Shown piece by piece: positions 2,477-17,730 of a stretch of DNA of 38,427 nucleotides (the first letter of the stretch is position 1; every line of letters begins with the position of its first letter). The notes below the pieces were generated by a model. It was not told the origin of the DNA. It saw only the letters and a list, made by a program, of their open reading frames with translations, and searched no databases. The translations under genes and the position numbers were made by a program. This stretch comes from Lacinutrix sp. (GTDB lineage: Bacteria > Bacteroidota > Bacteroidia > Flavobacteriales > Flavobacteriaceae), in NCBI RefSeq assembly GCF_023299985.1, contig NZ_JALZVX010000053.1, positions 1 to 38,427 of the forward strand. Reading direction: 5' to 3'.

Positions 2477-5310
2477 ATCTAAATTTAAGCTCTTTTTTAT
2501 TATGTCTATTCTTATGTTTTTTGGCAACTAGCCAGAACAAACTCGCTATTGATGCTACTTTCGATATTGAAAATAAAAGCATTAATATTGAACAATCTAT
2601 AGAATACTTTAATGCTTCAAATGTTGCTTTAGATACAATCTATTTAACAGACTGGAGTCATAGTTATTCTGCAAAAAACACACCATTAGCAGAGTGGTTT
2701 GCAGATGAATTTAAAAATACATTTCATTTTGCTAAAGAAGAAGATCGTGGTTTCACTATTATTAATTCAATTAAACAAAACAATATAGAAACTAGCTTTA
2801 ATCGTCTAGAAAACAAACCAGATATTATAAAAGTAGTACTAAATAAACCACTATTACCAAAAGAAATCTATACACTTAAACTTAACTATATTGTACAAAT
2901 CCCTAACGATAAATTTACACGTTATGGTATTACAAACAAAGGCGATTATAATTTAAGGTATTGGTATATTACACCTTCTGTTTTTGATGGCGAATGGCAT
3001 TATTTTAGTAATAAAAATTTAGACGATGCTTTTATACCTAAATCAGATATTAGTTTAAAAATTAACTACCCAAATAATTTTACTTTAATAAGTGAGTTAG
3101 ATGAAGAATCCACAGAAAATAGTAACAAAAACGGAACTAAATCAACAGTACTTAAAGGAAATAATCGTATTAACTCTAAGCTATTTTTAAACAAAACAAA
3201 CACTTATAAAACAGTTGAAACAGATTTTTTTACTGTAGAGTCTAATATAGATCAAGAAAATCTAAAGCCTGAAGAAATAGCAGTAATTACGGATAAGGTT
3301 GCCGGTTTTATTTCTAATAATCTTGGAGATTATCCACATAAAAAAGTATTACTAACAAAAATTGACTACAAAAAAAGCCCTATTTACGGCCTAAATTTAT
3401 TACCAGATTTTGTGCGTCCGTTTTCTGATACTTTTCAATACGAATTAAAAATACTGAAAACAACATTACATAATTATCTTGAAAACACGCTACTAATAAA
3501 TCCAAGAAAGGACCAATGGGTTTTAGATGGTATACAAACGTATTATTTAATAAAATATGTTGAAGAAAATTATCCAGACATGAAGATTTTAGGAAATCTG
3601 GCTAATATTTGGGGAGTAAGAGCATTTCATGCTTCAGATTTAAAATTTAATGACCAATACAACTTCCTTTACATGCACATGGCACGCTCTAATATAGATC
3701 AACCTTTGGATATGGCGAAAGATTCTCTTCTTAAATTTAACAAGAATATTGCAAACAAATACAAAGCAGGAGTTGGTTTAAACTATTTAGACAAATACAT
3801 GGATGGCAATGTAATGGATGTTATACTTACACAATTTTTAAAAGAAAATAAGTTAAAAACAACTACTGCCAATGATTTTAAAACCCATATTAAAGAAAAA
3901 ACAGATAAAAATATCGATTGGTTTTTTGATGATTATGTTGGAAGTAGTAAAAAAATAGATTTTAAAATTAAAAAAGTTAAAAAAACCGAAGACTCTTTAA
4001 TAATTACTATTAAAAATAAAAAAGACCATTTAATGCCTGTCTCTTTATTTACAGTAAAAAATGATAGTGTATTATCTAAACAATGGATTGAAGGATTTAA
4101 AGGTTACAAAACAATAACCATAGTAAACAATGATGCAGATAAATTAGCTCTTAATTACGATAGTACTATTCCAGAAATGAATTTAAGAAACAACTGGAAA
4201 TCTTTAGGTGGTTTTTTATCTAATAACAAACCACTTCAATTTAGACTGTTTAAAGATATTGAAGACCCTAATTACAGTCAAGTATTTTTTATACCTGAAT
4301 TTGCCTATAATTTTTACGATGGTTTTTCTCCTGGTTTAAAACTTTATAATAAAACACTTTTATCTAAAAATTTTTTATACCGTGTTAGTCCAAAATACGG
4401 TATAAAAAGTAAACAATTAGTTGGTAGTGCCTCTGTAAGCTACGTTGACCGTAAAGAATATTCAAAAAATTATTATACTAAATATGGTATTAGTGGAGAA
4501 AACTTTAACTACGCACCAGAATTATCTTATACTTCTTACACACCTTTTATAGATTTTAGATTTAGAGACCCTAATAACCTTAGAGACAACCGAAAAAGCT
4601 TCTTAAATTTTAGATATGTAAATATCGATAGAGAGGTCGACCCAACAGGTGAATTTGAAACAGATGGAGAGCCAAAATATAGCGTGTTTAATGCTCGCTA
4701 TGGACAAAGTAATCCTAATTTAAAGAACTTTACTTCTTGGAATACAGACTTACAGTTAGCTAATAACTTTGGTAAACTATCTGCTACTGCAGAATTTAGA
4801 ACATTAACACAAAGCAATAGACAGTATAATTTAAGACTCTTCGCAGGTACCTTTTTATATAACCAAACATTTGAAACAACAGATTTTTTTAGTTTTGCTT
4901 TAGACAGACCAACAGATTACTTATTCGATTACGATTATCTTGGTCGCTCAGAAGAAGCAGGATTACTAAGTCAGCAATTAGTGGTTTCAGAAGGTGGCTT
5001 TAAATCTCAACTAGAACCAGCATTTGCAAACCAATGGATTACTACAGCTAATGGTAGCACAACTATTTGGCGCTATATTATGGCTTATGGCGATTTAGGT
5101 TTAGTAAAAAACCACGGTACAAATCCTAAATTTGTTTACGATTCTGGCATTCGCTTAAATTTAGTAGAAGACTATTTTGAGTTATATCTTCCAATATACT
5201 CTAATTTAGGATGGGAAATTGGACAACCTAATTACGACCAAAGCATTCGTTTTATAGTAACGCTATCTCCAAAAACACTACTTAAATTATTTACACGAAG
5301 GTGGTATTAG
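2473..5310 (+). CDS. Degenerate M1-type peptidase domain fused to a probable outer-membrane beta-barrel
   Basis: This 945-residue secreted protein starts at a TTG that overlaps the previous stop (TTGA). No ATG lies near, and a signal peptide follows directly (about residues 4-19). Residues ~20-500 resemble the N-terminal and catalytic parts of M1 (gluzincin) aminopeptidases. Where M1 enzymes have HExxH, here there is H333-N-Y-L-E337, and the third zinc ligand region (normally NEG) reads LDGIQTYY, so zinc binding is probably lost. The GxMEN motif is also not recognisable. Residues ~600-945 are rich in alternating aromatic and polar residues and end in RRWY, as outer-membrane barrels do. The barrel call is inference from composition and the aromatic C-terminus. 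A hairpin terminator follows. Confidence 0.75.
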   Translation: MNLNLSSFLLCLFLCFLATSQNKLAIDATFDIENKSINIEQSIEYFNASNVALDTIYLTDWSHSYSAKNTPLAEWFADEFKNTFHFAKEEDRGFTIINSIKQNNIETSFNRLENKPDIIKVVLNKPLLPKEIYTLKLNYIVQIPNDKFTRYGITNKGDYNLRYWYITPSVFDGEWHYFSNKNLDDAFIPKSDISLKINYPNNFTLISELDEESTENSNKNGTKSTVLKGNNRINSKLFLNKTNTYKTVETDFFTVESNIDQENLKPEEIAVITDKVAGFISNNLGDYPHKKVLLTKIDYKKSPIYGLNLLPDFVRPFSDTFQYELKILKTTLHNYLENTLLINPRKDQWVLDGIQTYYLIKYVEENYPDMKILGNLANIWGVRAFHASDLKFNDQYNFLYMHMARSNIDQPLDMAKDSLLKFNKNIANKYKAGVGLNYLDKYMDGNVMDVILTQFLKENKLKTTTANDFKTHIKEKTDKNIDWFFDDYVGSSKKIDFKIKKVKKTEDSLIITIKNKKDHLMPVSLFTVKNDSVLSKQWIEGFKGYKTITIVNNDADKLALNYDSTIPEMNLRNNWKSLGGFLSNNKPLQFRLFKDIEDPNYSQVFFIPEFAYNFYDGFSPGLKLYNKTLLSKNFLYRVSPKYGIKSKQLVGSASVSYVDRKEYSKNYYTKYGISGENFNYAPELSYTSYTPFIDFRFRDPNNLRDNRKSFLNFRYVNIDREVDPTGEFETDGEPKYSVFNARYGQSNPNLKNFTSWNTDLQLANNFGKLSATAEFRTLTQSNRQYNLRLFAGTFLYNQTFETTDFFSFALDRPTDYLFDYDYLGRSEEAGLLSQQLVVSEGGFKSQLEPAFANQWITTANGSTTIWRYIMAYGDLGLVKNHGTNPKFVYDSGIRLNLVEDYFELYLPIYSNLGWEIGQPNYDQSIRFIVTLSPKTLLKLFTRRWY

Positions 5311-5476: not shown

Positions 5477-7888
5477 ATGAGCACAAATTCCGAGTTAAAA
5501 AAAGAGTTATCGTTTAATGATTTTAAAACACAAGTTTTAGAAGATTATAAAATAGCTGTAACAAGTCGAGAATGTAGCTTACTTGGTCGTCGTGAAGTAT
5601 TAACAGGAAAAGCTAAATTTGGTATTTTTGGAGATGGAAAAGAAGTACCACAACTAGCTTGGGCAAAAGCCTTTGCTAATGGAGACTTTAGATCTGGCTA
5701 TTACAGAGACCAAACCTTTATGATGGCAATTGGTCAATTAACAATCCAGCAATTTTTTTCTGGTTTATATGCCAATACAGATATTAATTTAGAACCAATG
5801 TCTGGAGGTCGACAAATGGGTGGACACTTTTCTACTTTTAGTTTAGACGAAAACGGTAACTGGAATAACCTTACAAAACAAAAAAATTCAAGCTCAGATA
5901 TTTCGCCTACAGCAGGACAAATGCCCAGACTTTTAGGTTTAGCACAAGCTTCTAAAATTTACAGAAATGTAAACGGAATAGATACAACTAAGTTTTCAGA
6001 CAAAGGAAATGAAATTGCTTGGGGAACAATAGGAAATGCAAGTACAAGCGAAGGTTTGTTTTTCGAAACCATTAATGCTGCTGGTGTTTTACAAGTACCA
6101 ATGGTTGTTAGTGTTTGGGACGATGAATATGGTATTTCTGTTCATGCAAGACACCAAACAACTAAAGAAAATATATCTGAAATATTAAGTGGTTTTCAAC
6201 GAGATAATGAAGCTAAAGGTTACGAAATTCTTCGTGTTAAAGGTTGGGACTATGTTGCACTAATAGAAACATATCAAGAAGCTGCAAGAGTATCTAGAAC
6301 AGAGCATGTGCCTGTTTTAATACATGTAAACGAACTAACACAGCCTCAAGGACACTCTACCTCTGGTTCTCACGAACGCTATAAAGACAAAGACCGTTTA
6401 GATTGGGAAGCGAAAATGGACTGTAATGTGCAGTTAAGAAAATGGATGATAGAAACTGGAATTTCTACAGACGAAGAATTAACTACCATAGAAAAAGCAA
6501 TTAAAAAAGAAGTTAGAGAAGGTAAAAAAGCTGCTTGGAATGCGTATTTAAATCCAATTATAGCAGAAAGAAATGACATTTCTACAATTATTACTCAAGT
6601 TGCTGCAGCAAGTACAAACAGAGTTTTTATTGAAAAAATTAATAACGATTTAACTGCTATAACAGAACCAGCTCGTAAAGATTTAGTTTCTGCTGCAAGA
6701 CGAGTACTTAGATATGTTGTTTCTGAAAATTCTTCAGCTAAAACACAATTAACAGATTGGATTGATGGATATTTCAAATTAATTCAACCAAAATACAGTT
6801 CTCATTTACATAATGAAACGATAACTGCTGCCAAAAACATTAAAGAAGTATTACCGCTTTACGATGCTAATAATGAAGATGTTGATGGTCGTGTAGTTTT
6901 AAGAGATAATTTTGATGCTATTTTTAGCAAATATCCAGAATCGTTGATTTTTGGTGAAGATGCAGGAAATATTGGTGATGTAAATCAAGGCTTAGAAGGA
7001 CTACAAGAAAAATATGGTGAATTACGTATCGCAGATGCTGGTATTCGTGAAGCTACTATTATTGGTCAAGGTATTGGTATGGCAATGCGTGGTTTAAGAC
7101 CAATTGCAGAAATTCAATATTTAGATTACATTATGTATGCGCTTCAAATAATGAGTGACGATCTTGCTACTGTACATTACAGAACTAAAGGTCGCCAAAA
7201 AGCACCATTAATTGTGCGTACTCGTGGACATAGATTAGAAGGCATTTGGCATTCTGGATCTCAATTAGGAGGTGTTTTAAACCTAATACGTGGTATTCAT
7301 GTATTAGTGCCTAGAAATATGACTAAAGCTGCCGGCTTTTATAATACTTTACTAGAAAGCGATGAACCTGCTCTAGTTGTAGAATGCTTAAATGGCTACA
7401 GGCTTAAAGAAAAAAAACCAACCAATTTTGGTGAATTTAAAACGCCTATTGGTGTTGTAGAAACTGTAAAAGAAGGAAAAGACATAACTGTTGTTTCTTA
7501 TGGTTCTACTTTAAGAATTGTACAAGAAGTCGCTAAAGAGTTACTACAAGTTGGTATCGATATAGAAGTTGTTGATGCACAATCCCTATTGCCTTTCGAT
7601 ATAAACCATGATGTTGTTAAGAGTTTAGCAAAAACTAACCGCTTAATGATTATAGATGAAGATGTTCCTGGAGGTGCATCGGCTTATTTGTTAGACCAAA
7701 TACTGAACAAGCAAAATGGTTATCAGTATTTAGATTGTGCGCCTAAAACATTAGCTGCAAAGCCTCACAGACCAGCATATGGAACAGATGGTGATTATTT
7801 CTCTAAACCTTCCGCTGAAGATATATATGAAGCTATTTACGATGTAATGCATGAGAACAATCCAAATGATTATCCAAAATTAAGATAG
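5477..7888 (+). CDS. Fused E1 alpha/beta subunit of a branched-chain-type 2-oxoacid dehydrogenase
   Basis: This 803-residue protein carries both E1 subunits in one chain. The N-terminal half holds the thiamine-diphosphate-binding E1-alpha fold, with the region around GNASTSEGLFF and VSVWDDEYGIS as the cofactor motif. The C-terminal half is the transketolase-like E1-beta fold, with the catalytic/activating Glu region FGEDAG, RTRGHRLEG, and a closing transketolase C-terminal domain (ITVVSYGSTLRIV). It decarboxylates 2-oxoacids and passes the acyl group to lipoyl-E2. The alpha-beta fusion is common in Flavobacteriia and is usually annotated as branched-chain oxoacid (2-oxoisovalerate) dehydrogenase; substrate preference is inferred. 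E2 and E3 are not in the window. It has its own promoter and terminator, so it is monocistronic here. Confidence 0.93.
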   Translation: MSTNSELKKELSFNDFKTQVLEDYKIAVTSRECSLLGRREVLTGKAKFGIFGDGKEVPQLAWAKAFANGDFRSGYYRDQTFMMAIGQLTIQQFFSGLYANTDINLEPMSGGRQMGGHFSTFSLDENGNWNNLTKQKNSSSDISPTAGQMPRLLGLAQASKIYRNVNGIDTTKFSDKGNEIAWGTIGNASTSEGLFFETINAAGVLQVPMVVSVWDDEYGISVHARHQTTKENISEILSGFQRDNEAKGYEILRVKGWDYVALIETYQEAARVSRTEHVPVLIHVNELTQPQGHSTSGSHERYKDKDRLDWEAKMDCNVQLRKWMIETGISTDEELTTIEKAIKKEVREGKKAAWNAYLNPIIAERNDISTIITQVAAASTNRVFIEKINNDLTAITEPARKDLVSAARRVLRYVVSENSSAKTQLTDWIDGYFKLIQPKYSSHLHNETITAAKNIKEVLPLYDANNEDVDGRVVLRDNFDAIFSKYPESLIFGEDAGNIGDVNQGLEGLQEKYGELRIADAGIREATIIGQGIGMAMRGLRPIAEIQYLDYIMYALQIMSDDLATVHYRTKGRQKAPLIVRTRGHRLEGIWHSGSQLGGVLNLIRGIHVLVPRNMTKAAGFYNTLLESDEPALVVECLNGYRLKEKKPTNFGEFKTPIGVVETVKEGKDITVVSYGSTLRIVQEVAKELLQVGIDIEVVDAQSLLPFDINHDVVKSLAKTNRLMIIDEDVPGGASAYLLDQILNKQNGYQYLDCAPKTLAAKPHRPAYGTDGDYFSKPSAEDIYEAIYDVMHENNPNDYPKLR

Positions 7889-7994: not shown

Positions 7995-9596
7995 ATGCTT
8001 ACAAAAAAAGACAAAGTACAACTAAGAGGAACTATTTTTAGACATCTTGATGGTATAGCAACTGCTACCACTATGTTCTCGTTACATAAAAAAGGTGTTT
8101 TAGAGTTTCTGTTAAAAAATAAATCTATAGAACTTTCAAAAATAGTAACAGCGTTTAATGCTAATGATGGTTATTTAAATATTGCACTAAGAGTGTTGTG
8201 TTCTCAAGGTTGGTTAGAACAAAACATAGATAATAAAAACAATACAGTAACCTATTCCACAAATAAAAATAGTGAACTCGCATTTAAATTAGCCTATTTA
8301 TATGAAGATGCTGTAAATTTATTAAGTTATGCTGCTCGCTTTCCCGAAGAGCGAAATATTGGTACTGACGCCTTTATTGTTTTAGAGCGCATATTTAAAA
8401 AATACAATAATAATTATGGTTTAGCTACACCAGAAGAAAATACTGTAGCTTATCAAGTTTTAAAGCATATAGAAGGTTGTATTGTTGCACCAATTACTGT
8501 AATGTTAGGTGTTAATGGGTTGTTTCATAAATATTTTATGGAAGCTTCTTTCTCTGCCGAAGAATACCATAAAGATCCAGAAAGTTTTAAAAAAATATTA
8601 GACTTTCTAAGTCATATTGGGTGGTTTAAAAAGAAAAACAGAAACTATCAATTTACAGACGAAGGTTTATTTTTTGCTAAACGTGCTTCAGCTTATGGTG
8701 TTACAGTATCTTATTTGCCAACCTTTTTGCAGTTAGATGAACTACTTTTTGGTAATCCATTAGTATTAAAATCTGAAGAAGGTGAAACCGAAAAACATGT
8801 AGATAGAGAAATGAATGTTTGGGGAAGTGGTGGAGCACACTCTACTTACTTTAAAGTTATAGACCAGGTTATTATTAAACTCTTTAACAAACCAATAGAC
8901 GAGCAACCAAAAGGCATACTAGATATGGGTTGTGGCAATGGTGCTTTTATTCAGCATATTTTCGATGTAATTGAGCACCAAACTTTACGTGGTAAAATGC
9001 TTGAAGAACATCCACTTTTACTCGTTGGAGCAGATTTTAATAAAGCGGCTTTAAAAGTAACACGAGCCAATTTAATAAAAGCAGATATTTGGGCTAAAGT
9101 AATTTGGGGAGACATTGGCAGACCAGATTTACTAGCAAACGATTTACGAGAAGATTACAACATTGAACTTAAAGATTTACTTAACGTTCGTACCTTTCTA
9201 GATCATAATCGTATTTGGGAAGCACCAAAAAACCCAACAAAACGTATAAGCAATTCTTCTGGTGCATTTGCATATAAAGGCAAGCGTATTAGCAATAATT
9301 TGGTAGAAGATTCTCTTTTAGAGCATTTACAAAAATGGAAACCTTATGTAGAACAATTTGGCTTATTAATTATAGAATTACATACTATAAACCCAGAATT
9401 AACATCAAAAAATATTAGCAAAACTGCAGCAACAGCTTACGATGCTACGCATGGTTATAGCGATCAATACATTTTAGAGGTTGCTGTTTTTAATAAAATT
9501 GCAGAAGAAGCTGGTTTAAAACCAGATAGCAATCATTTTTCAAGATTTCCAGATAGCGATTTAGCTACAGTTAGTGTAAATTTGTTAAAAGGATAA
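7995..9596 (+). CDS. Class I SAM-dependent methyltransferase, large (AprA-MT2-like)
   Basis: This 533-residue cytoplasmic protein has an N-terminal winged-helix-like/dimerisation region (residues ~1-120), a middle helical part, and a Rossmann-fold methyltransferase domain in the C-terminal half with motif I LDMGCGNGAF near residues 315-324 and an acidic motif II (GADFN). The C-terminal segment DATHGYSDQYILE recalls methyltransferase domains associated with polyketide-type loading modules (AprA MT2); this is recognition from memory and tentative. No acyl carrier or ketosynthase gene is nearby, so the substrate is unknown. The DUF202 gene follows after 4 bases and is probably in the same transcript. 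A weak -7-like TATCTTTA is seen at 7970-7977. Confidence 0.75.
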   Translation: MLTKKDKVQLRGTIFRHLDGIATATTMFSLHKKGVLEFLLKNKSIELSKIVTAFNANDGYLNIALRVLCSQGWLEQNIDNKNNTVTYSTNKNSELAFKLAYLYEDAVNLLSYAARFPEERNIGTDAFIVLERIFKKYNNNYGLATPEENTVAYQVLKHIEGCIVAPITVMLGVNGLFHKYFMEASFSAEEYHKDPESFKKILDFLSHIGWFKKKNRNYQFTDEGLFFAKRASAYGVTVSYLPTFLQLDELLFGNPLVLKSEEGETEKHVDREMNVWGSGGAHSTYFKVIDQVIIKLFNKPIDEQPKGILDMGCGNGAFIQHIFDVIEHQTLRGKMLEEHPLLLVGADFNKAALKVTRANLIKADIWAKVIWGDIGRPDLLANDLREDYNIELKDLLNVRTFLDHNRIWEAPKNPTKRISNSSGAFAYKGKRISNNLVEDSLLEHLQKWKPYVEQFGLLIIELHTINPELTSKNISKTAATAYDATHGYSDQYILEVAVFNKIAEEAGLKPDSNHFSRFPDSDLATVSVNLLKG

Positions 9597-9977: not shown

Positions 9978-10448
9978 ATGAAAGCAGTCTCAGTTGTTAC
10001 CATAAGAAAAGAACTAAAGCACAAGTCTAGCGAAGAGTTGGCAGAGCTTTGCTTACGTTTATCGCGTTTTAAAAAGGAAAACAAAGAGCTACTTACCTAT
10101 TTACTTTTTGAAGCAGATAGCGAAGCTGGTTATATAGAAACCGTAAAAGCAGAAATAGATGAGCAGTTCGAGCTTATTAACACAGACAGCTTTTTCTACA
10201 TTAAAAAAAGTGTTCGTAAAATACTAAGAAACACTAAAAAGTACATTCGTTATTCGCTTAATAAAGAAACCGAAGTAGAACTCCTACTCTATTTTTGTAA
10301 ACAATTAAAAGCAATGAAACCTTCTATTTCTAGAAATACAACGCTTACTAATATTTACGAGCGTAATATTGAAGCCATAACTAAAAAGGTTTTTGCTTTG
10401 CATGAAGATTTGCAGTACGATTATACTTTGGCTTTAGAAGAAATGTAA
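9978..10448 (+). CDS. Conserved-looking helical protein of unknown function
   Basis: The 156-residue protein is not recognised. It has no signal peptide or membrane segment, is rich in Lys, Glu and Leu, and is probably all-helical. It begins with MKAVSVVTIRKELKHKSSEEL and has a basic centre (KKSVRKILRNTKKYIRY). The high charge and compact size would suit a cytoplasmic protein; no catalytic motif is visible. The methyltransferase gene starts 20 bases downstream on the same strand, which suggests co-transcription. Codon use resembles the neighbours. Confidence 0.75.
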   Translation: MKAVSVVTIRKELKHKSSEELAELCLRLSRFKKENKELLTYLLFEADSEAGYIETVKAEIDEQFELINTDSFFYIKKSVRKILRNTKKYIRYSLNKETEVELLLYFCKQLKAMKPSISRNTTLTNIYERNIEAITKKVFALHEDLQYDYTLALEEM

Positions 10449-11128: not shown

Positions 11129-11141
11129 TTTATAAATGTTT

Positions 11142-11289
11142 AGGGTTTCGCTTAGCTTTTGGTGTAAGAATTGTAGCCGATTGCGTGGCACATTCTTGTC
11201 AAGTTACTCAGAAGTTGAAGCGGGCTACAACCCTTGATTTTAGTACTGAACCGGCTATTATTTTTATATATTGTTAGCATTTCATGTTT
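11142..11289. repeat. Structured palindromic intergenic element next to the CoiA-like gene
   Basis: This non-coding stretch folds extensively. TTGTAGCC (11171-11178) pairs with GGCTACAA (11223-11230); AAGAAT (11166-11171) with ATTCTT (11192-11197); CGCTT (11149-11153) with AAGCG (11218-11222); and AGGGTT (11142-11147) could alternatively pair with AACCCT (11229-11234). It is more GC-rich than the surroundings. Its right edge, TTAGCATTTCATGT (11274-11287), is repeated in inverted form beyond the other end of the adjacent gene. It resembles folded recombination sites such as integron attC or a dispersed intergenic repeat, but canonical core sites are not clear. Confidence 0.55.
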
Positions 11290-12962
11290 TATTTATATTC
11301 GATTCCTGCATAAATCTCTGGGTATAATTCATTTATTAATTCGTCAATTTCAAAATTTTGTTGAGGCATTTCTGAATAATAATTATGCAACTTTCTTGAA
11401 AATGATTTTTTTGAATCTTCTTCTTCAACCAATTTCCATGTGTCATAATATCTAAAAGCTAATTCGATATACTCCCAATACTCCTTGTAAAACTGAATCG
11501 CTAGATTAGCCAATTGAACCCACTTCTTGGTTTTATATTTATATACGATTAGTTCTTGTCTTTTGGCTGATTCAATTATTTGCAAAATCTCAGGATGATC
11601 AAAAACCAAAGGAACTAAACTTCTGTTTTTAAGCTTATTACAAGTTTCAAATAGGAATATTTTATCAGGATTAGATAATAATCTATTTAATTTTGCTTCA
11701 TCTATTGAATCAAGCTCATAGTCAAACTCTAATAGTTTCTTTACAAGAATAATTTTTTCATACTCCTTAATTTTTTCATTTTCTATTAAAGTCTGTAAAA
11801 CAGTTGTATTCTTTTGAGTTTTTTCATTAATATCCTTGTCAATTTTTCTGCAATTAATTAGAAAGTCTAGAAATGGGATATCTTCATTTTTTGCTGACTT
11901 AAACCATTTGATTATTGGTGTTTGTCTTGATTTTAAAGCAATTTTTGAATTAAGTATTTTTAATTCGAAATGTGAAAGTTCATCGATTCTGTTCTTCACA
12001 TTTTCAAAACTGAAATATTTCTTCTTCCTTAATTCTTGAATTTTTAATATTATGTTTTCAGCTTTTTCCTTCGCTTCTTGGAGTTTTAATTCTTCAAGTC
12101 TTAATTTTTCAAGTTTCTGAATCTCTTCATTTCTTATTTTTTGTTCTTTTTCCGTATTAGTCCTGTTATCCCCAAAATTGTAGAAATAAGCCTGAAATGC
12201 AGAACTGTCAAATTTTAATTGTGAAATGGAAACTGATTTATTAAGCCATTTTGTAAGTAATTGATTTTCATTAGTCAAGAATGGGAATTTGTATTCACAT
12301 TTGAGTTTAAATGAATCTGAATTTTCATCAAGTTTGAAGAAATTTTCATACTTAGTTAGATATTTTATATCTCTTTCAAGTGTTCCTTGATTATGGATAT
12401 CAAAATCATCAAGTATCCAAATTAGATAAATTTCATGCTTCTTGTAAAATTCATAACGACTTAATATATAAGCAAGGGAAAGGTCAGAAAGTTGAATTTC
12501 AAAAACAAGTTCTTTGTCTTTATATTTACAGTAAACATCTGGTCGTCTTTTCTCATCTCCTAAAATAATAAATTTATCATCAATTGATATTGCAGAAGAA
12601 TCAACACCGTCAACATGTTTTAGTAGTGTTCCAATTTTGTTTTTTAATTCAATGTGGCGTTCACTTTCTTTAGCTATTAAAATCCTATTAAAAACATCCT
12701 GTTCTTTTGGTGTCAAATTTCCATCAGATAATATACAATAAGAATGACCATGTTTATGTTTAAAGTAAAGTCTATTATATTTACTATCAGATACTGCTAA
12801 ATCTTGTTGACATTCAAGGCACGAAAGTTCAATTTCCTTTGCATGATAGCGTCTCCTTATTTTGAATGGGTCATTAGATTTTTGAAATATTTTATCTGCT
12901 TCAAGAATTTCTCCTGAAGATTTGTCAAATGCGCTTTTTATTGACCTTTCATTTAGACTCAT
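11289..12962 (-). CDS. CoiA-like nuclease-fold protein with zinc-ribbon-like N-terminus
   Basis: This 557-residue protein has an N-terminal cysteine/histidine cluster (C48-x2-C51, H69, H71, H73, C76) that could bind zinc. A PD-(D/E)xK-type nuclease core follows: RRPDVYCKY with D142, then VFEIQLS with E155 and Q157, the ExQ variant seen in CoiA-like competence nucleases. Residues ~275-315 form a charged coiled coil (repeats of KLEKLRLEELKL). The C-terminal ~240 residues are helical and unrecognised. No signal peptide. It stands alone on the minus strand between plus-strand genes, is flanked by short inverted repeats, and may be horizontally acquired. A role in DNA processing or defence is inference from the fold. 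Confidence 0.75.
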   Translation of the reverse strand: MSLNERSIKSAFDKSSGEILEADKIFQKSNDPFKIRRRYHAKEIELSCLECQQDLAVSDSKYNRLYFKHKHGHSYCILSDGNLTPKEQDVFNRILIAKESERHIELKNKIGTLLKHVDGVDSSAISIDDKFIILGDEKRRPDVYCKYKDKELVFEIQLSDLSLAYILSRYEFYKKHEIYLIWILDDFDIHNQGTLERDIKYLTKYENFFKLDENSDSFKLKCEYKFPFLTNENQLLTKWLNKSVSISQLKFDSSAFQAYFYNFGDNRTNTEKEQKIRNEEIQKLEKLRLEELKLQEAKEKAENIILKIQELRKKKYFSFENVKNRIDELSHFELKILNSKIALKSRQTPIIKWFKSAKNEDIPFLDFLINCRKIDKDINEKTQKNTTVLQTLIENEKIKEYEKIILVKKLLEFDYELDSIDEAKLNRLLSNPDKIFLFETCNKLKNRSLVPLVFDHPEILQIIESAKRQELIVYKYKTKKWVQLANLAIQFYKEYWEYIELAFRYYDTWKLVEEEDSKKSFSRKLHNYYSEMPQQNFEIDELINELYPEIYAGIEYK

Positions 12963-12983
12963 AATTGTCGTCTTGGGTTTTTG

Positions 12984-12996
12984 ACATGAATGCTAA
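12984..12996. repeat. Right member of the inverted repeat bracketing the CoiA-like gene
   Basis: ACATGAATGCTAA is the reverse complement of TTAGCATTCATGT. The left member (11274-11287) is TTAGCATTTCATGT, identical except for one extra T. The pair lies immediately outside the start and stop of the minus-strand gene. Confidence 0.5.
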
Positions 12997-13006
12997 TGTT
13001 TCGTTA

Positions 13007-13033
13007 ATAAAAAATCATTTTAATGTTTTTTAT
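13007..13033. repeat. AT-rich hairpin upstream of the CoiA-like gene
   Basis: Stem ATAAAAAAT / GTTTTTTAT (9 bp with one G-T pair) around a 9-base loop. It lies between the cassette gene's start and the GTTAAGCG motif at 13040-13047. The 12963-13282 interval otherwise holds no credible gene; it carries the promoter of the next gene at its right end. Confidence 0.4.
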
Positions 13034-13216
13034 CAGACGTTAAGCGAAGTTATATTTTTAAAAACTAAAAATCAAGTGTTTATAATGTTCAATAATAAAC
13101 ACTTATTAACAAAAACACATCACTTTCAAGTCGCTTTTAGCCTATAAATATTCAATTAAGGTGTTTTATTATTAGTAATTTATAGCTCTAATTACTCTAC
13201 AATTAATTTAACTACT

Positions 13217-13247
13217 TTTGAATGCAGATTTTTCTTTGGTATATTTA
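13217..13247 (+). promoter_or_regulatory. Bacteroidetes-type promoter for the 483-residue secreted protein
   Basis: TTTG at 13217-13220, a 19-base spacer, then TATATTTA at 13240-13247 (TAnnTTTG with the last base changed). The ATG is 36 bases after the -7 element. Confidence 0.6.
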
Positions 13248-13282
13248 TTGACTAACCTGTTTTAAACATATAAACCCAAAAC

Positions 13283-14734
13283 ATGAAAAAAATTATTTTT
13301 ACACTTTTATTTGTATTACCATTACTAACTTTTGGTCAAAAAATCAAGCTTAAAAAAGGACTTTTAACTATCGATGGTAAATCTGTTGCTATGGTAGACG
13401 ACGATACACGTAACTTTTACAAGTTTAAAACACTAGATGGCGAAAAAGTATTCGATGTTGCCTTTAAAGGCTTATCTGCTTCTAACCTAGAAGGTTTTCA
13501 ATGGTTAGAAATAACATCACCAGATGGTAAAATAACCGAAATTCCTTATGAAGTTTTAATGACTTCATTTAACACCACTAAACTAATTGTTAAACTGTTA
13601 AGTTCTAAATACGAACTTTTAGATGCTAGTGGTTTAAAAACGGATAATATTACTGCCTTTTTTGAGCAAGAACGAGAAAAACTAAGCGATAAATACGCAA
13701 AAGCTGTTGTGGCTTCTAAAGCAGATGCTGCTGCAAGACAAAAAGCTATTGGTGCATACAATCCACATGTAAAAGATAACGGAACAGTTGTTTTTGGTGG
13801 CTCTCAAGGCACAAAAATTGTTGGTAAAGTTGTTTACCAAATGAATGCTAATCGCAGTAGCAACTACGTTGCTGTAGATTTAGATGGTATTACAGTTGCC
13901 ACGGCTTCTGGATGTTCTACTTGTACAGAAACTAAAGTAAAAACATACACAGATGAAGAATTCTCTTACGATTACGGCTCTAAAACCATGATGACTGGTC
14001 GTTTCTCGAATTCTCAAGCAAAGATTTTTATTGAAGAATTGGTTGGACGTGGTTATAAATTAGGGCGTGAAGCTAAAACAAAAGGAAAACAATTACGAAA
14101 CGAAAAAATTAAGATTGCAAAAGAAAACAGTACTAACTTATATGGTATTGCTGGTAATGTTACAGATAAAGATGGTGTAGTTTATAATGGTACAATTTAT
14201 GCCGTTTTTGAAGCATTAGTAATTGACGATAGCCAACGTGAAAGCGGAATGGCAGATTTAGATGTTATAGATAACTATGGAAAAACGGTTAACGTAAAAT
14301 ACAAAAACGAAAAAGGGAAAACACGTACTAAAAAATTAATGGCAAAACAAGGCGCTACTTTTTGTACAGAAATTGAAGGCGAAAACACTTGTTTTTATGG
14401 TATGAAAACTAAAGGAAACGCATTAAAAAAATTATCTAATGCTGCAAGTCTTGGTTTTAACAACTCGTACTTTTACAAAGAAGTTAAAAAAATAAATGGT
14501 CATCAATTATTAGTTAAACCTGGAGACGAAGGCATTTACGTTATTAAGTTTAAAAATAAAGACGCAGGTTTTATGATAGATGGACGTAACAACGAAAAAA
14601 TATCTACAGCCTTTGCTAAATTCTTAAAAGACGATTGCAAATCACTTTCTGAAGATTTAGGTAACAATGAGTTCGATTTAAAAAATGTTGAAAACCTTAT
14701 CAATATTATAGAAGAATATAATGCTTGTAAGTAA
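13283..14734 (+). CDS. Secreted protein of unknown function
   Basis: The 483-residue protein has a clear Sec signal peptide (MKKIIFTLLFVLPLLTFGQ, cleavage after about residue 19). The mature part is rich in Lys, Gly and Asp, begins KIKLKKGLLTIDGK, and contains a CSTC motif (near residue 212) and two further cysteines in FCTEIEGENTC. It does not match a family I can name. No membrane anchor, lipobox or T9SS sorting domain is seen, so it is probably periplasmic. It is a single-gene transcription unit bounded by a recognisable promoter and a strong terminator. Confidence 0.8.
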   Translation: MKKIIFTLLFVLPLLTFGQKIKLKKGLLTIDGKSVAMVDDDTRNFYKFKTLDGEKVFDVAFKGLSASNLEGFQWLEITSPDGKITEIPYEVLMTSFNTTKLIVKLLSSKYELLDASGLKTDNITAFFEQEREKLSDKYAKAVVASKADAAARQKAIGAYNPHVKDNGTVVFGGSQGTKIVGKVVYQMNANRSSNYVAVDLDGITVATASGCSTCTETKVKTYTDEEFSYDYGSKTMMTGRFSNSQAKIFIEELVGRGYKLGREAKTKGKQLRNEKIKIAKENSTNLYGIAGNVTDKDGVVYNGTIYAVFEALVIDDSQRESGMADLDVIDNYGKTVNVKYKNEKGKTRTKKLMAKQGATFCTEIEGENTCFYGMKTKGNALKKLSNAASLGFNNSYFYKEVKKINGHQLLVKPGDEGIYVIKFKNKDAGFMIDGRNNEKISTAFAKFLKDDCKSLSEDLGNNEFDLKNVENLINIIEEYNACK

Positions 14735-14754
14735 ACTTATTTTTAGAAAATAAT

Positions 14755-14786
14755 AAAAAACGCCTTTTAATTAAAAGGCGTTTTTT
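14755..14786 (+). terminator. Strong, bidirectional Rho-independent terminator
   Basis: Perfect 14-bp stem AAAAAACGCCTTTT / AAAAGGCGTTTTTT around AATT. T-tracts occur on both strands, so it can end transcription of the 483-residue gene and of the minus-strand META/cupin/holA side. Confidence 0.93.
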
Positions 14787-14851
14787 ATTTAGTCTATAAT
14801 ATAGCTTTAAAATATTTTTTTTGAGATAAAGACTTAAAAGTAAAGTAAGCT

Positions 14852-15202
14852 TTAGTCTACCTTTTTGTATCGCAGCAACTCTTCGCCTTTAGTATTATAA
14901 AGTAACAATTTAAGGTTTTCAATTTTATATGCTTGAGTTTCAGCCAAAGCCTTTTTAATAGCGTTAGACAACGTAATATTAGGGCAAGCCATTTTTGTTC
15001 CTGCTAAAGCATTAAATGCTAATCTATTATTATCTACTGTTTTAAGGTCTCCAAAAAAATTATTACAGCTATCGTTTCCTAAAACGCTACTAGTAGTGAG
15101 GTTAATTTCTAAATTTGGATGTTTATTGTACTTATTAAGGTCTATTTCTTCTCCTTTAACAGCTTCTAAAGCCCAAATATCGTGCAGTACTAATTTAATA
15201 TC
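14852..15202 (-). pseudogene. Second META domain, detached by a frameshift
   Basis: Read on the minus strand from 15202, the frame gives DIKLVLHDIWALEAVKGEEI, then GNDSCNNFFGDL, GTKMACPN and a closing ENLKLLLYN, ending at a TAA (14852-14854). This is a complete META domain parallel to the one just upstream (GNDGCNRFTG, GTEMACPN). It has no start codon: the frame is closed by TAA immediately upstream and the first ATG lies inside the KMACP motif. Removing one A from the A8 tract at 15203-15210 would join it in frame to the first META domain. It is therefore the C-terminal half of a tandem META protein, lost by frameshift, unless slippage rescues it or the base is a sequencing error. Confidence 0.8.
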
Positions 15203-15644
15203 TTTTTTTTAGATCTTGCTTATAATTAAGAACTTCCTTTTTATTAGCATCGTATAAAAAGAGTTGAGAATCTTCAATTTTATAAGATTGTACTTGACGC
15301 AATGCTTGATTAATTGCTGAAGAAACTTCCATATTAGGACATGCCATTTCTGTGCCTATAAATTTCGAAAACACTAATACCAAAGTATCAACCTTATCTA
15401 TTTTACCTGTAAATCTATTGCAACCATCGTTACCAGAAACACGGTTATTAGAAATATCTAATTCTAATATTGCTTTTTTAATTAAAATTTTAGTATTTAA
15501 TGCTTCACCATTAATACTATTTAAAGCCCAAATACCATTTAGTTCTGTTTTATTACTTAGCATCGTTTTATCAATTATAGCAGCGTTTTTAACAGATTGA
15601 CAAGACGTTAATAAGATAACGCATAGCAGTAATTGTAATTTCAT
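15195..15644 (-). CDS. META-domain (HslJ-like) lipoprotein, probably truncated
   Basis: The 149-residue product begins with a lipoprotein signal (LLLCVILLTSCQS, lipid-carrying Cys at residue 15) followed by one META domain with the signature GNDGCNRFTGKI and FIGTEMACPN. META domains occur in HslJ and other envelope proteins linked to stress or motility; the biochemical role is unclear. The end of the protein, DLKKRY, comes from reading through an A8 tract (15203-15210) and stopping at once. Directly downstream lies a second META domain in another frame, so the ancestral protein was probably a two-domain lipoprotein of about 263 residues. Confidence 0.8.
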   Translation of the reverse strand: MKLQLLLCVILLTSCQSVKNAAIIDKTMLSNKTELNGIWALNSINGEALNTKILIKKAILELDISNNRVSGNDGCNRFTGKIDKVDTLVLVFSKFIGTEMACPNMEVSSAINQALRQVQSYKIEDSQLFLYDANKKEVLNYKQDLKKRY

Positions 15645-15774
15645 GATTGTACTTTTTATTACTAAATGTTTTTAGTTATTGTTAACTGTAACCCAAATTT
15701 CATACCAAATTAATACACTAAAATTATTACTAATTATTAGGTGTTAAATGCTAAAGTTTAATTTAAAACAAATA

Positions 15775-16143
15775 TTACTTTGGTTCTACAATTAGAAATA
15801 AAGCAGTACTATCTCCAATATTAAGTACTTCGTGCTCGCTTAATTCTGTTTTAACCCAATTAACACCTGTTGTAACAGGCACATCTCGTGTGCCTTTATT
15901 GTCTGTAATTTTAAAAATGCTTCCAGCTAATGTATAACCAAAATGTGGTTTATGGTAATGCTTTTGGTGACCTACATTTGGAGGGAAAACACATTTTAAA
16001 ACGCGTTGTTTTTTGGTTTCGCTTAATACTTCGCATACTTTTTCTCCTTCCCAACCTGCTTCTAAAGGATCTGGAAGTGTTTGTGTAGTTTTACAAGAAA
16101 AGATTAATAATAGTAAAACAATTAAAGTGTATTTAATGTACAT
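15775..16143 (-). CDS. Cupin-domain lipoprotein
   Basis: The 122-residue protein has a lipoprotein signal (LIVLLLLIFSCKT, Cys at residue 17) and a single small cupin barrel: a metal-binding-type motif HQKHYHKPHFGYTLAGS in the first cupin motif and a looser second motif (LSEHEVLNIGDSTALF). It should be anchored in the envelope facing the periplasm or surface. Ligand is unknown. It begins 7 bases after the holA stop, so it is probably translated from the same transcript. Confidence 0.82.
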   Translation of the reverse strand: MYIKYTLIVLLLLIFSCKTTQTLPDPLEAGWEGEKVCEVLSETKKQRVLKCVFPPNVGHQKHYHKPHFGYTLAGSIFKITDNKGTRDVPVTTGVNWVKTELSEHEVLNIGDSTALFLIVEPK

Positions 16144-17277: not shown

Positions 17278-17730
17278 GTGCAAGAATTAAACTTTCCTAC
17301 ATATTCGTTCCGATTCAAAAATAGCGAAAATAAAGTATCTATATTCGATGCTATTCGTAAAAAATTTGTGATTTTACAACCCGAAGAATGGGTTAGGCAA
17401 CATTGCGTGCAGTATTTAATGGAAGTAAAAGGTTACCCGAAATCGCTTATTAATGTTGAAAAAGAACTTAAAATCAACGATTTAAAAAAACGTTATGACA
17501 TCGTAATTTTTAATACAGATGGCAGCATACACTTAATTGTTGAGTGTAAAGCGCCTAAAATAAAAATTAAACAAGATACTTTCGATCAAGTCGCGCGTTA
17601 TAATTTAGCATTAAATACAACGTATTTAATGGTGACTAATGGATTAAATCATTATTATTGTGTAATGGATTTTGAAAATGAGAAGTATAATTTCTTACAA
17701 GATATTCCTAATTATAAAAAAGATGAATAA
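17278..17730 (+). CDS. Orphan HsdR N-terminal-like (PD-(D/E)xK) protein
   Basis: The 150-residue protein corresponds to the 'type I restriction enzyme R protein N-terminal' family (HSDR_N_2). The nuclease core is readable: KRYDIVIFNTDGSIHLIVEC, with D in YDIV and E-C-K in VECKAP, followed by QVARYN. There is no helicase part and no HsdM or HsdS gene, so this is not a type I restriction system. The protein starts at GTG, supported by the family-like opening (V/M)QELNFPTYSF; the next in-frame Met is about residue 48. The gene is divergent from holA and its end overlaps the start of the DUF998 gene by 8 bases. Confidence 0.85.
   Translation: MQELNFPTYSFRFKNSENKVSIFDAIRKKFVILQPEEWVRQHCVQYLMEVKGYPKSLINVEKELKINDLKKRYDIVIFNTDGSIHLIVECKAPKIKIKQDTFDQVARYNLALNTTYLMVTNGLNHYYCVMDFENEKYNFLQDIPNYKKDE

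Follow-up and report, generated by a model that had tools for sequence, protein, structure and literature searches.

Integrons are known chiefly from Proteobacteria, and reports from 2025 are said to place defence genes in them. In the sedentary chromosomal integron, of which the Vibrio superintegron is the example (PMC11014356), a recombinase adjoins a row of compact genes, and every gene has a hairpin site behind it. Cassettes are also described outside integrons, at attG or single attC sites (Loot 2024, via excerpts of PMC12444791), and attC-like arrays away from a recombinase are known as CALIN (excerpts of PMC9668308). According to PMC4792948 and PMC8138268, the I2 insertion has not been identified outside integron integrases and is essential to integron function. 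For Bacteroidetes, IntegronFinder 2.0 (PMC9024848) gives integrase-only elements, found in earlier work by its authors, and a single complete integron, that of Salinibacter ruber; excerpts of two further papers list Bacteroidota among the integron-bearing phyla and leave Flavobacteria unmentioned (PMC9668308, PMC8618304). In our search of openly accessible journal articles, no title among the matches listed dealt with integrons on the chromosomes of Flavobacteriaceae.

Here we describe a cassette system of Flavobacteriaceae that, judged from its sequence organization, works like an integron. It combines a gene with a hairpin site, complementary R'/R'' cassette ends, a G^TT junction and a recombinase beside an array. 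We do not claim the classical IntI class for it because the IntI-specific insertion (I2) was looked for, by comparing one recombinase (genome G026) with IntI4 2A3V, and is absent. The resemblance to the sedentary chromosomal integron extends to the recombinase next to compact genes with a hairpin site after each, to the junction, to the complementary ends and to a ParE toxin cassette; the differences are a recombinase without the IntI-specific insertion, mostly with about 100 aa of extra N-terminal sequence, and an additional set of dispersed, promoter-bearing recipient sites. As with attG, cassettes lie outside the array, but in this system they enter a conserved, repeated element that bears a promoter motif and in several cases occupies common loci with different cassettes, and instead of the many unrelated loci described for attG we found aligned recipient sites that share sequence and promoter motif across genera. 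As with CALIN, attC-like arrays occur away from the recombinase (for example at 3205330-3226222 of genome G009), whereas a promoter-bearing recipient precedes the cassette at the dispersed sites.

The window, meaning the whole stretch analyzed, comprises 38,427 nt of Lacinutrix sp. (contig NZ_JALZVX010000053.1). A preceding sequence-only reading had pointed to a lone minus-strand gene within a plus-strand run, and the open reading frames of the window bear this out, with plus-strand genes on both sides of 11289-12962 (-). This nuclease gene is very probably the cargo of an integron-type gene cassette seated in a dispersed recipient site, termed A, as the following arrangement of predicted features suggests.

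11156..12996, minus strand: whole inserted cassette, 1841 nt, bounded by the cassette-start TT and the last base ahead of the displaced resident arm
11289..12962, minus strand: cassette gene, 557 aa, with DUF7830 (17-82), DUF6035/CoiA-like (87-264), a helical linker and DUF7829 (330-549)
12984..12996, minus strand: cassette start TTAGCATTCATGT, repeat arm 1, junction 12997/12996
11273..11287, minus strand: R''-like arm of the cassette, ACATGAAATGCTAAC, repeat arm 2
11148..11283, minus strand: B-type hairpin recombination site of about 127 nt, attC-like (covariance model 68 bits, E 2.2e-10; nhmmer 50.6 bits; both models built from 25 sites that include this one)
11145..11156, minus strand: displaced resident R' arm GCTAAGCGAAAC, at the far end of the cassette
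12998..13081, minus strand: A-type recipient site, consisting of promoter motif, R'' and hairpin (nhmmer 45.7 bits, from a profile whose 75-sequence training set includes this site)
13038..13049, minus strand: resident R'' CTTCGCTTAACG
13005..13035, minus strand: hairpin of the recipient site, TGATAAAAAACATT..AATGATTTTTTATTA
13045..13075, minus strand: promoter motif TTG-N20-TAACTTCG, oriented towards the cassette gene

Read in the orientation of the gene, the upstream part runs from TTG-N20-TAACTTCG, which we take to be the Bacteroidetes-type promoter consensus, through arm CTTCGCTTAACG and the hairpin to the cassette start at ACA^TTAGCATTCATG and the gene; the downstream part consists of ACATGAAATGCTAAC, hairpin site B of about 127 nt and G^CTAAGCGAAAC, the displaced arm. 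The junction is thus A^TT, as against the usual G^TT type. The displaced R' arm carries one T-to-C change relative to the expected GTTAAGCGAA, and 8 nt of it (TAAGCGAA) are complementary to the resident R'', at a distance of 1.9 kb. Arms TTCGCTTA / TAAGCGAA of the resident site make up a second pair, interleaved with the pair of cassette ends.

The sequence-only reading had proposed a mobile cassette on the ground of a short inverted repeat at the edges of the gene. The repeat is found where it had been placed, with TTAGCATTTCATGT occupying 11274-11287 and its inverted counterpart TTAGCATTCATGT occupying 12984-12996, the difference being one inserted T. Taken by itself it means little: the longest exact inverted match of the flanks is 9 nt, a length reached in 311 of 1000 dinucleotide shuffles. 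It is significant because of its position and its family, its arms being the cassette start and the first arm of the recombination site, a pairing also seen in many other cassettes. By its sequence the repeat is the complementary pair of cassette ends that integron insertion predicts. The proposal of a mobile cassette is therefore supported as an integron-type cassette in a dispersed recipient, and terminal inverted repeats fall away as the reason for it. The limits first given were nearly right, although they left out the recombination site as well as the half site of the recipient; the actual unit spans 11156-12996 and is enclosed by a recipient site extending to about 13081.

An independent basis for the A-site of the window is a blastn comparison of the right flank of the cassette with its own genome, where the flank proved to be a dispersed repeat with 35 matches at E <= 1, eight of them besides the query below 1e-6. 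The aligned copies show a promoter-like stretch, the arm TTCGTTTAACG, the hairpin, CG^TT and, in most, soon afterwards a gene start. The stretches fetched from this incomplete genome hold 15 A-sites. Contig C9 of this genome has a single recipient unit repeated four times in tandem. One copy is empty (..ACG^TTAAACAAACC); of the three filled copies, the first contains a ParE toxin with its presumed upstream partner, the second a gene of 162 aa and the third a gene of 259 aa. Each insert is followed by ^TTAAACGAA(C/T)C and a nearly identical downstream flank, so that the sequence itself displays the recipient, the insert and the join.

Across the family, the A-site hairpin matched in 51 of 299 sampled Flavobacteriaceae, empty or filled (65 matched the 251-nt query, 14 of them outside the hairpin part), a number that is likely an underestimate because only two candidates were scored per genome. 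The hosts include Lacinutrix, Algibacter, Wocania, Flaviramulus and Confluentibacter. The promoter motif is present in 66 of 86 A-sites, 59 with the N20 spacing. Automatic parsing of 83 of the 91 A-sites in the fetched loci, the window's being among the eight left over and parsed by hand, gave 16 empty and 67 filled; at least four of the latter (L098, L116, L120, and L126 at 3067) are by eye mis-parsed and empty or empty-like, and a few cassette starts are some bases off. For 59 filled sites the cassette start was compared with the 200 nt preceding a resident-like R'; in 22 of them it is exactly complementary to an arm there (mean 1.4 and maximum 4 in 20 shuffles), at a spacing of 122-129 nt in 15 of the 22. 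Covariation between resident R'' and R' is weak: only 5 of 22 non-consensus sites have their own complement downstream (swapped, mean 1.5 and maximum 6), and two of the five matches, those in the window (+2736) and in L111 (+4031), lie away from a cassette end, while several other non-consensus sites have the consensus arm instead. Similar sequence also occurs on a plasmid and in phages. A 7-kb Pontimicrobium plasmid has an A-site (NZ_CP157200.1, 2026-2111; 84% over 98% of the query), and an A-like piece of about 85% is found at 1412-1450 of KC821617.1 and in nine other Cellulophaga phage records; in Cellulophaga baltica phage it comprises R'' and part of the hairpin, and it is intergenic in the one record opened.

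In several cases A-sites occupy common chromosomal places at which the content changes, as a comparison of 16 locus pairs illustrates. Two genomes of the window's genus (L107 and L108) have flanks 97-99% identical and the same A-site with different cassettes. In L140/L141, L152/L165, L100/L133 and L151/L159 the filled and empty versions aligned from either flank up to some 25 nt from the predicted join; L145/L162 aligned upstream only, and the remaining pairs were more diverged, rearranged or cut by contig ends.

The cassettes themselves share the hairpin site B. From 57 laxly defined cassettes, a strict filter on site length (122-132 nt) left 28, and removal of one poor case, one duplicate from an overlapping locus and one without B features left 25. 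Across the aligned sites of these 25, 92.9% of stem cells are paired against 75.1% when shuffled, with 45 double changes against 15.7 (none of 500 shuffles as high) and only two G-U cells. The cargo is compact, with a coding fraction of 0.8-0.98 in 23 of the 25 complete cassettes, the other two being one masked by N and one at 0.57. A family scan of 13 cargo proteins, 12 of them from the 25 cassettes, returned AbiU/AIPR, ThsB/TIR-like and caspase-like families together with aquaporin, AraC-type and S41, and several proteins matched nothing. At L158 3666-5479 (Wocania ichthyoenteri) an A-site cassette has three genes, of which two were scanned and match ThsB/TIR-like models, the third resembling the first; the cassette at L130 (G264:C13) has two genes antisense to the A promoter and is toxin-antitoxin-like by layout only, the one protein scanned having no family match.

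A B profile built solely from A-site cassettes led to long B arrays beside a tyrosine recombinase. Seventeen recombinase loci (323 kb), hand-picked mostly from complete genomes, contain 93 B-sites, 91 of them in one direction per locus; sixteen loci have at least one, 13 at least two and one has none. An eighteenth locus, L269, was left out as its match is XerD-like at 30% identity. Thirteen XerC/XerD control loci (149 kb) contain no B-site and two A-sites. Exactly complementary ends occur in 63 of 72 consecutive array cassettes, against a mean of 2.0 and a maximum of 6 in 200 shuffles. The window's own genome has 29 B-sites in all, including a row divergent from the array recombinase on contig C6, and the one-contig genome G009 has 66.

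Relatives of this recombinase (E <= 1e-40) are present in 189 of the 299 sampled Flavobacteriaceae, with open frames of 284 to 450 codons in the 19 examined. Roughly 95-190 residues precede the recombinase match in 16 of the 17 array recombinases (L252-L268), the genus of the window having the short form; three of these extensions were scanned against Pfam and gave no match. None of 60 genomes has an IntI above the TIGR02249 cut-off, the C6 recombinase reaching 164 of 265 bits. The G026 recombinase aligned with IntI4 2A3V in two halves that skip IntI residues 199-247, about 45 being missing, and the nearest PDB sequences of two array recombinases are XerA and a XerC-like protein. Recombinase and recipient tend to occur together: 42 of the 51 genomes with an A hairpin have the recombinase as against 147 of 248 others (Fisher p 0.002, uncorrected for kinship), or 51 of 65 as against 138 of 234 when every A match is counted, which leaves 9 of 51 (14 of 65) without it at the threshold used. 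No A-site lies within the 17 recombinase loci, and for this reason the enzyme that fills A-sites is inferred from the shared B-sites.

We propose that a recombinase of the C6 type would excise array cassettes as circles and insert them at the G^TT junction of A-sites. Insertion would shift the second arm of the palindromic A-site to the far end of the cassette, and the A promoter would then express the inserted cassette. A foreign or transient classical integron integrase, using A-sites as attG-like or single-attC targets, might instead have delivered the cassettes. This would agree with the lack of an IntI above the cut-off in the 60 genomes searched, with a resident recombinase devoid of the IntI insertion and with the description, in PMC12444791, of attG as genomic cassette targets that are neither attC nor attI; we nevertheless consider it unlikely, since attG insertions are reported in the same text as broadly spread over many loci, whereas A is one conserved promoter-bearing sequence at common positions in several genera, and since cassettes in A-sites and those of the resident arrays have one B-site family in common. 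Still less probable is movement by XerC/XerD through folded single-stranded sites in the manner of phage CTXphi, a precedent described in PMC4792948. Proteins of both types are present in the window's genome, the A arms are short and palindromic, and A-sites adjoin xerC in 2 of 12 XerC loci, but the B arrays stand beside a third recombinase and are absent from all 13 XerC/XerD loci. XerC, considered as the cassette integrase on account of an A-site beside xerC in two genomes, was rejected on these control loci.

A reading of A and B as regulatory or REP-like palindromes that spread in some other way, the intervening genes not being inserted as units, appears highly improbable: the promoter motif in A-sites and the A-like pieces in Cellulophaga phages would suit it, yet filled, empty and swapped loci have their joins at the predicted point and the cassette ends are complementary. 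An ordinary transposon, IS or MITE whose terminal repeats bracket the gene is barely credible. The short imperfect inverted repeat at the gene edges would be its mark, but this repeat is at chance level, the cassette ends differ, each being complementary to its own partner far more than to others, and the only gene in the segment encodes no transposase domain. A transposon terminal inverted repeat was rejected on the chance-level 9-nt match. Insertion of cassettes by the resident recombinase remains our preferred reading of the A-sites.

As the sequence-only reading had suggested, the locus was compared with related genomes, and 59 relatives, 12 of them of the window's genus, have no match to the gene at E <= 1e-10. 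Four homologues with DUF7829 occur in other Flavobacteriaceae; they do not appear to sit in such cassettes because their fetched flanks contain no A or B site. Searches of genome and viral contigs with the single window protein confirmed no relative; an alignment-based search found one, on a viral contig from IMG/VR (L301). This relative, at 4001-4909, is 68% over residues 1-303 of the window protein and is cut by the contig end; its neighbours match tail and baseplate families. In genome G002, of the same genus, the same locus holds another gene, of 259 aa, at a degenerate A-site. Homologues of the window genes 5477-7888, 7995-9596 and 9978-10448 (by eye, from the list of open reading frames) are followed there by four other open reading frames, the 259-aa gene and the orthologues of the genes starting at 13283 and 15775 (84.9% and 83% DNA identity). 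The 259-aa gene begins where the A-site stands, of which 31 nt are 93.5% identical to the window; the hairpin has diverged, so that the A profile gives it no more than 7.1 bits (E 0.03-0.04). Neither a B-site nor a resident R' was recognized after the gene. The closest relative, G003, lacks 11129-15774, the stretch lying between the methyltransferase and the gene at 15775-16143, which amounts to the cassette plus genes 13283 and 15195; it was rejected as an empty site on account of the two missing genes beyond the cassette.

Pfam assigns DUF7830 and DUF6035 to the N-terminal part of the protein and DUF7829 to residues 330-549 (E 1.5e-59), so the stretch of about 240 residues first described as unrecognized belongs to a named family. 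The CoiA-like nuclease assignment held when the protein was compared with both profiles proposed for it: PF06054 (CoiA) matches at 2.8e-10, 41 bits over a cut-off of 20.3, and PF19500 (DUF6035) at 2.2e-85. Seven residues are invariant in five homologues, namely the zinc-ligand-like C48, C51, H69 and C76 of the proposed C/H cluster, to which H73 does not belong by this measure, and D142, E155 and Q157 of the D...EXQ core. A single-sequence structure model had a mean pLDDT of 36, and a PDB sequence search gave one match, at E 0.086. The protein is most likely a metal-dependent DNA nuclease with a putative zinc ribbon and a predicted EXQ-type PD-(D/E)xK core. The EXQ motif III is common to the CoiA-like and YhgA-like PD-(D/E)xK nucleases (PMC1913061), from which the window protein differs by its added DUF7830 and DUF7829 domains.

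The weakest step of our explanation is the role of this nuclease, which may be an accessory one and possibly directed against phages. Suggestive of such a role are the AbiU/AIPR, TIR and caspase-like proteins of other cassettes, the relative on a viral contig beside tail- and baseplate-like genes, and the recovery of a CoiA-domain protein in a functional selection for anti-phage systems (PMC9519451); PADLOC gave no match for the window protein. Another gene of the window, at 17278-17730 (+), encodes a 150-aa HSDR_N_2 protein (type I restriction enzyme N-terminal), and none of five other window genes scanned is a partner. The DUF6035 protein could alternatively serve DNA uptake or recombination, as CoiA does. 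The CoiA profile match would favor this, but we regard it as the less likely role given the patchy spread of DUF7829, in 5 of 299 genomes of the family including this one, and its mobile contexts, a cassette and a viral contig with tail- and baseplate-like genes.

Our broadest proposal, advanced tentatively and with rather less than even confidence, is that Flavobacteriaceae have a "distributed integron", separate from IntI or branched off before it, in which a recombinase without I2 would build the cassette arrays, and many promoter-bearing docking sites at conserved chromosomal loci would draw single cassettes from these arrays for expression. If this is true, positions across the genome, rather than one platform, would decide which cassette is on. 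Large arrays have a problem in expressing their genes, which scattered sites that bring a promoter along would lessen. A system without I2 would make the question of integron evolution directly testable. The dispersed promoter-bearing sites would also offer a place to look for new defence genes, and it appears that in one marine family a cassette system passed over by the standard integrase profile is present in many members.
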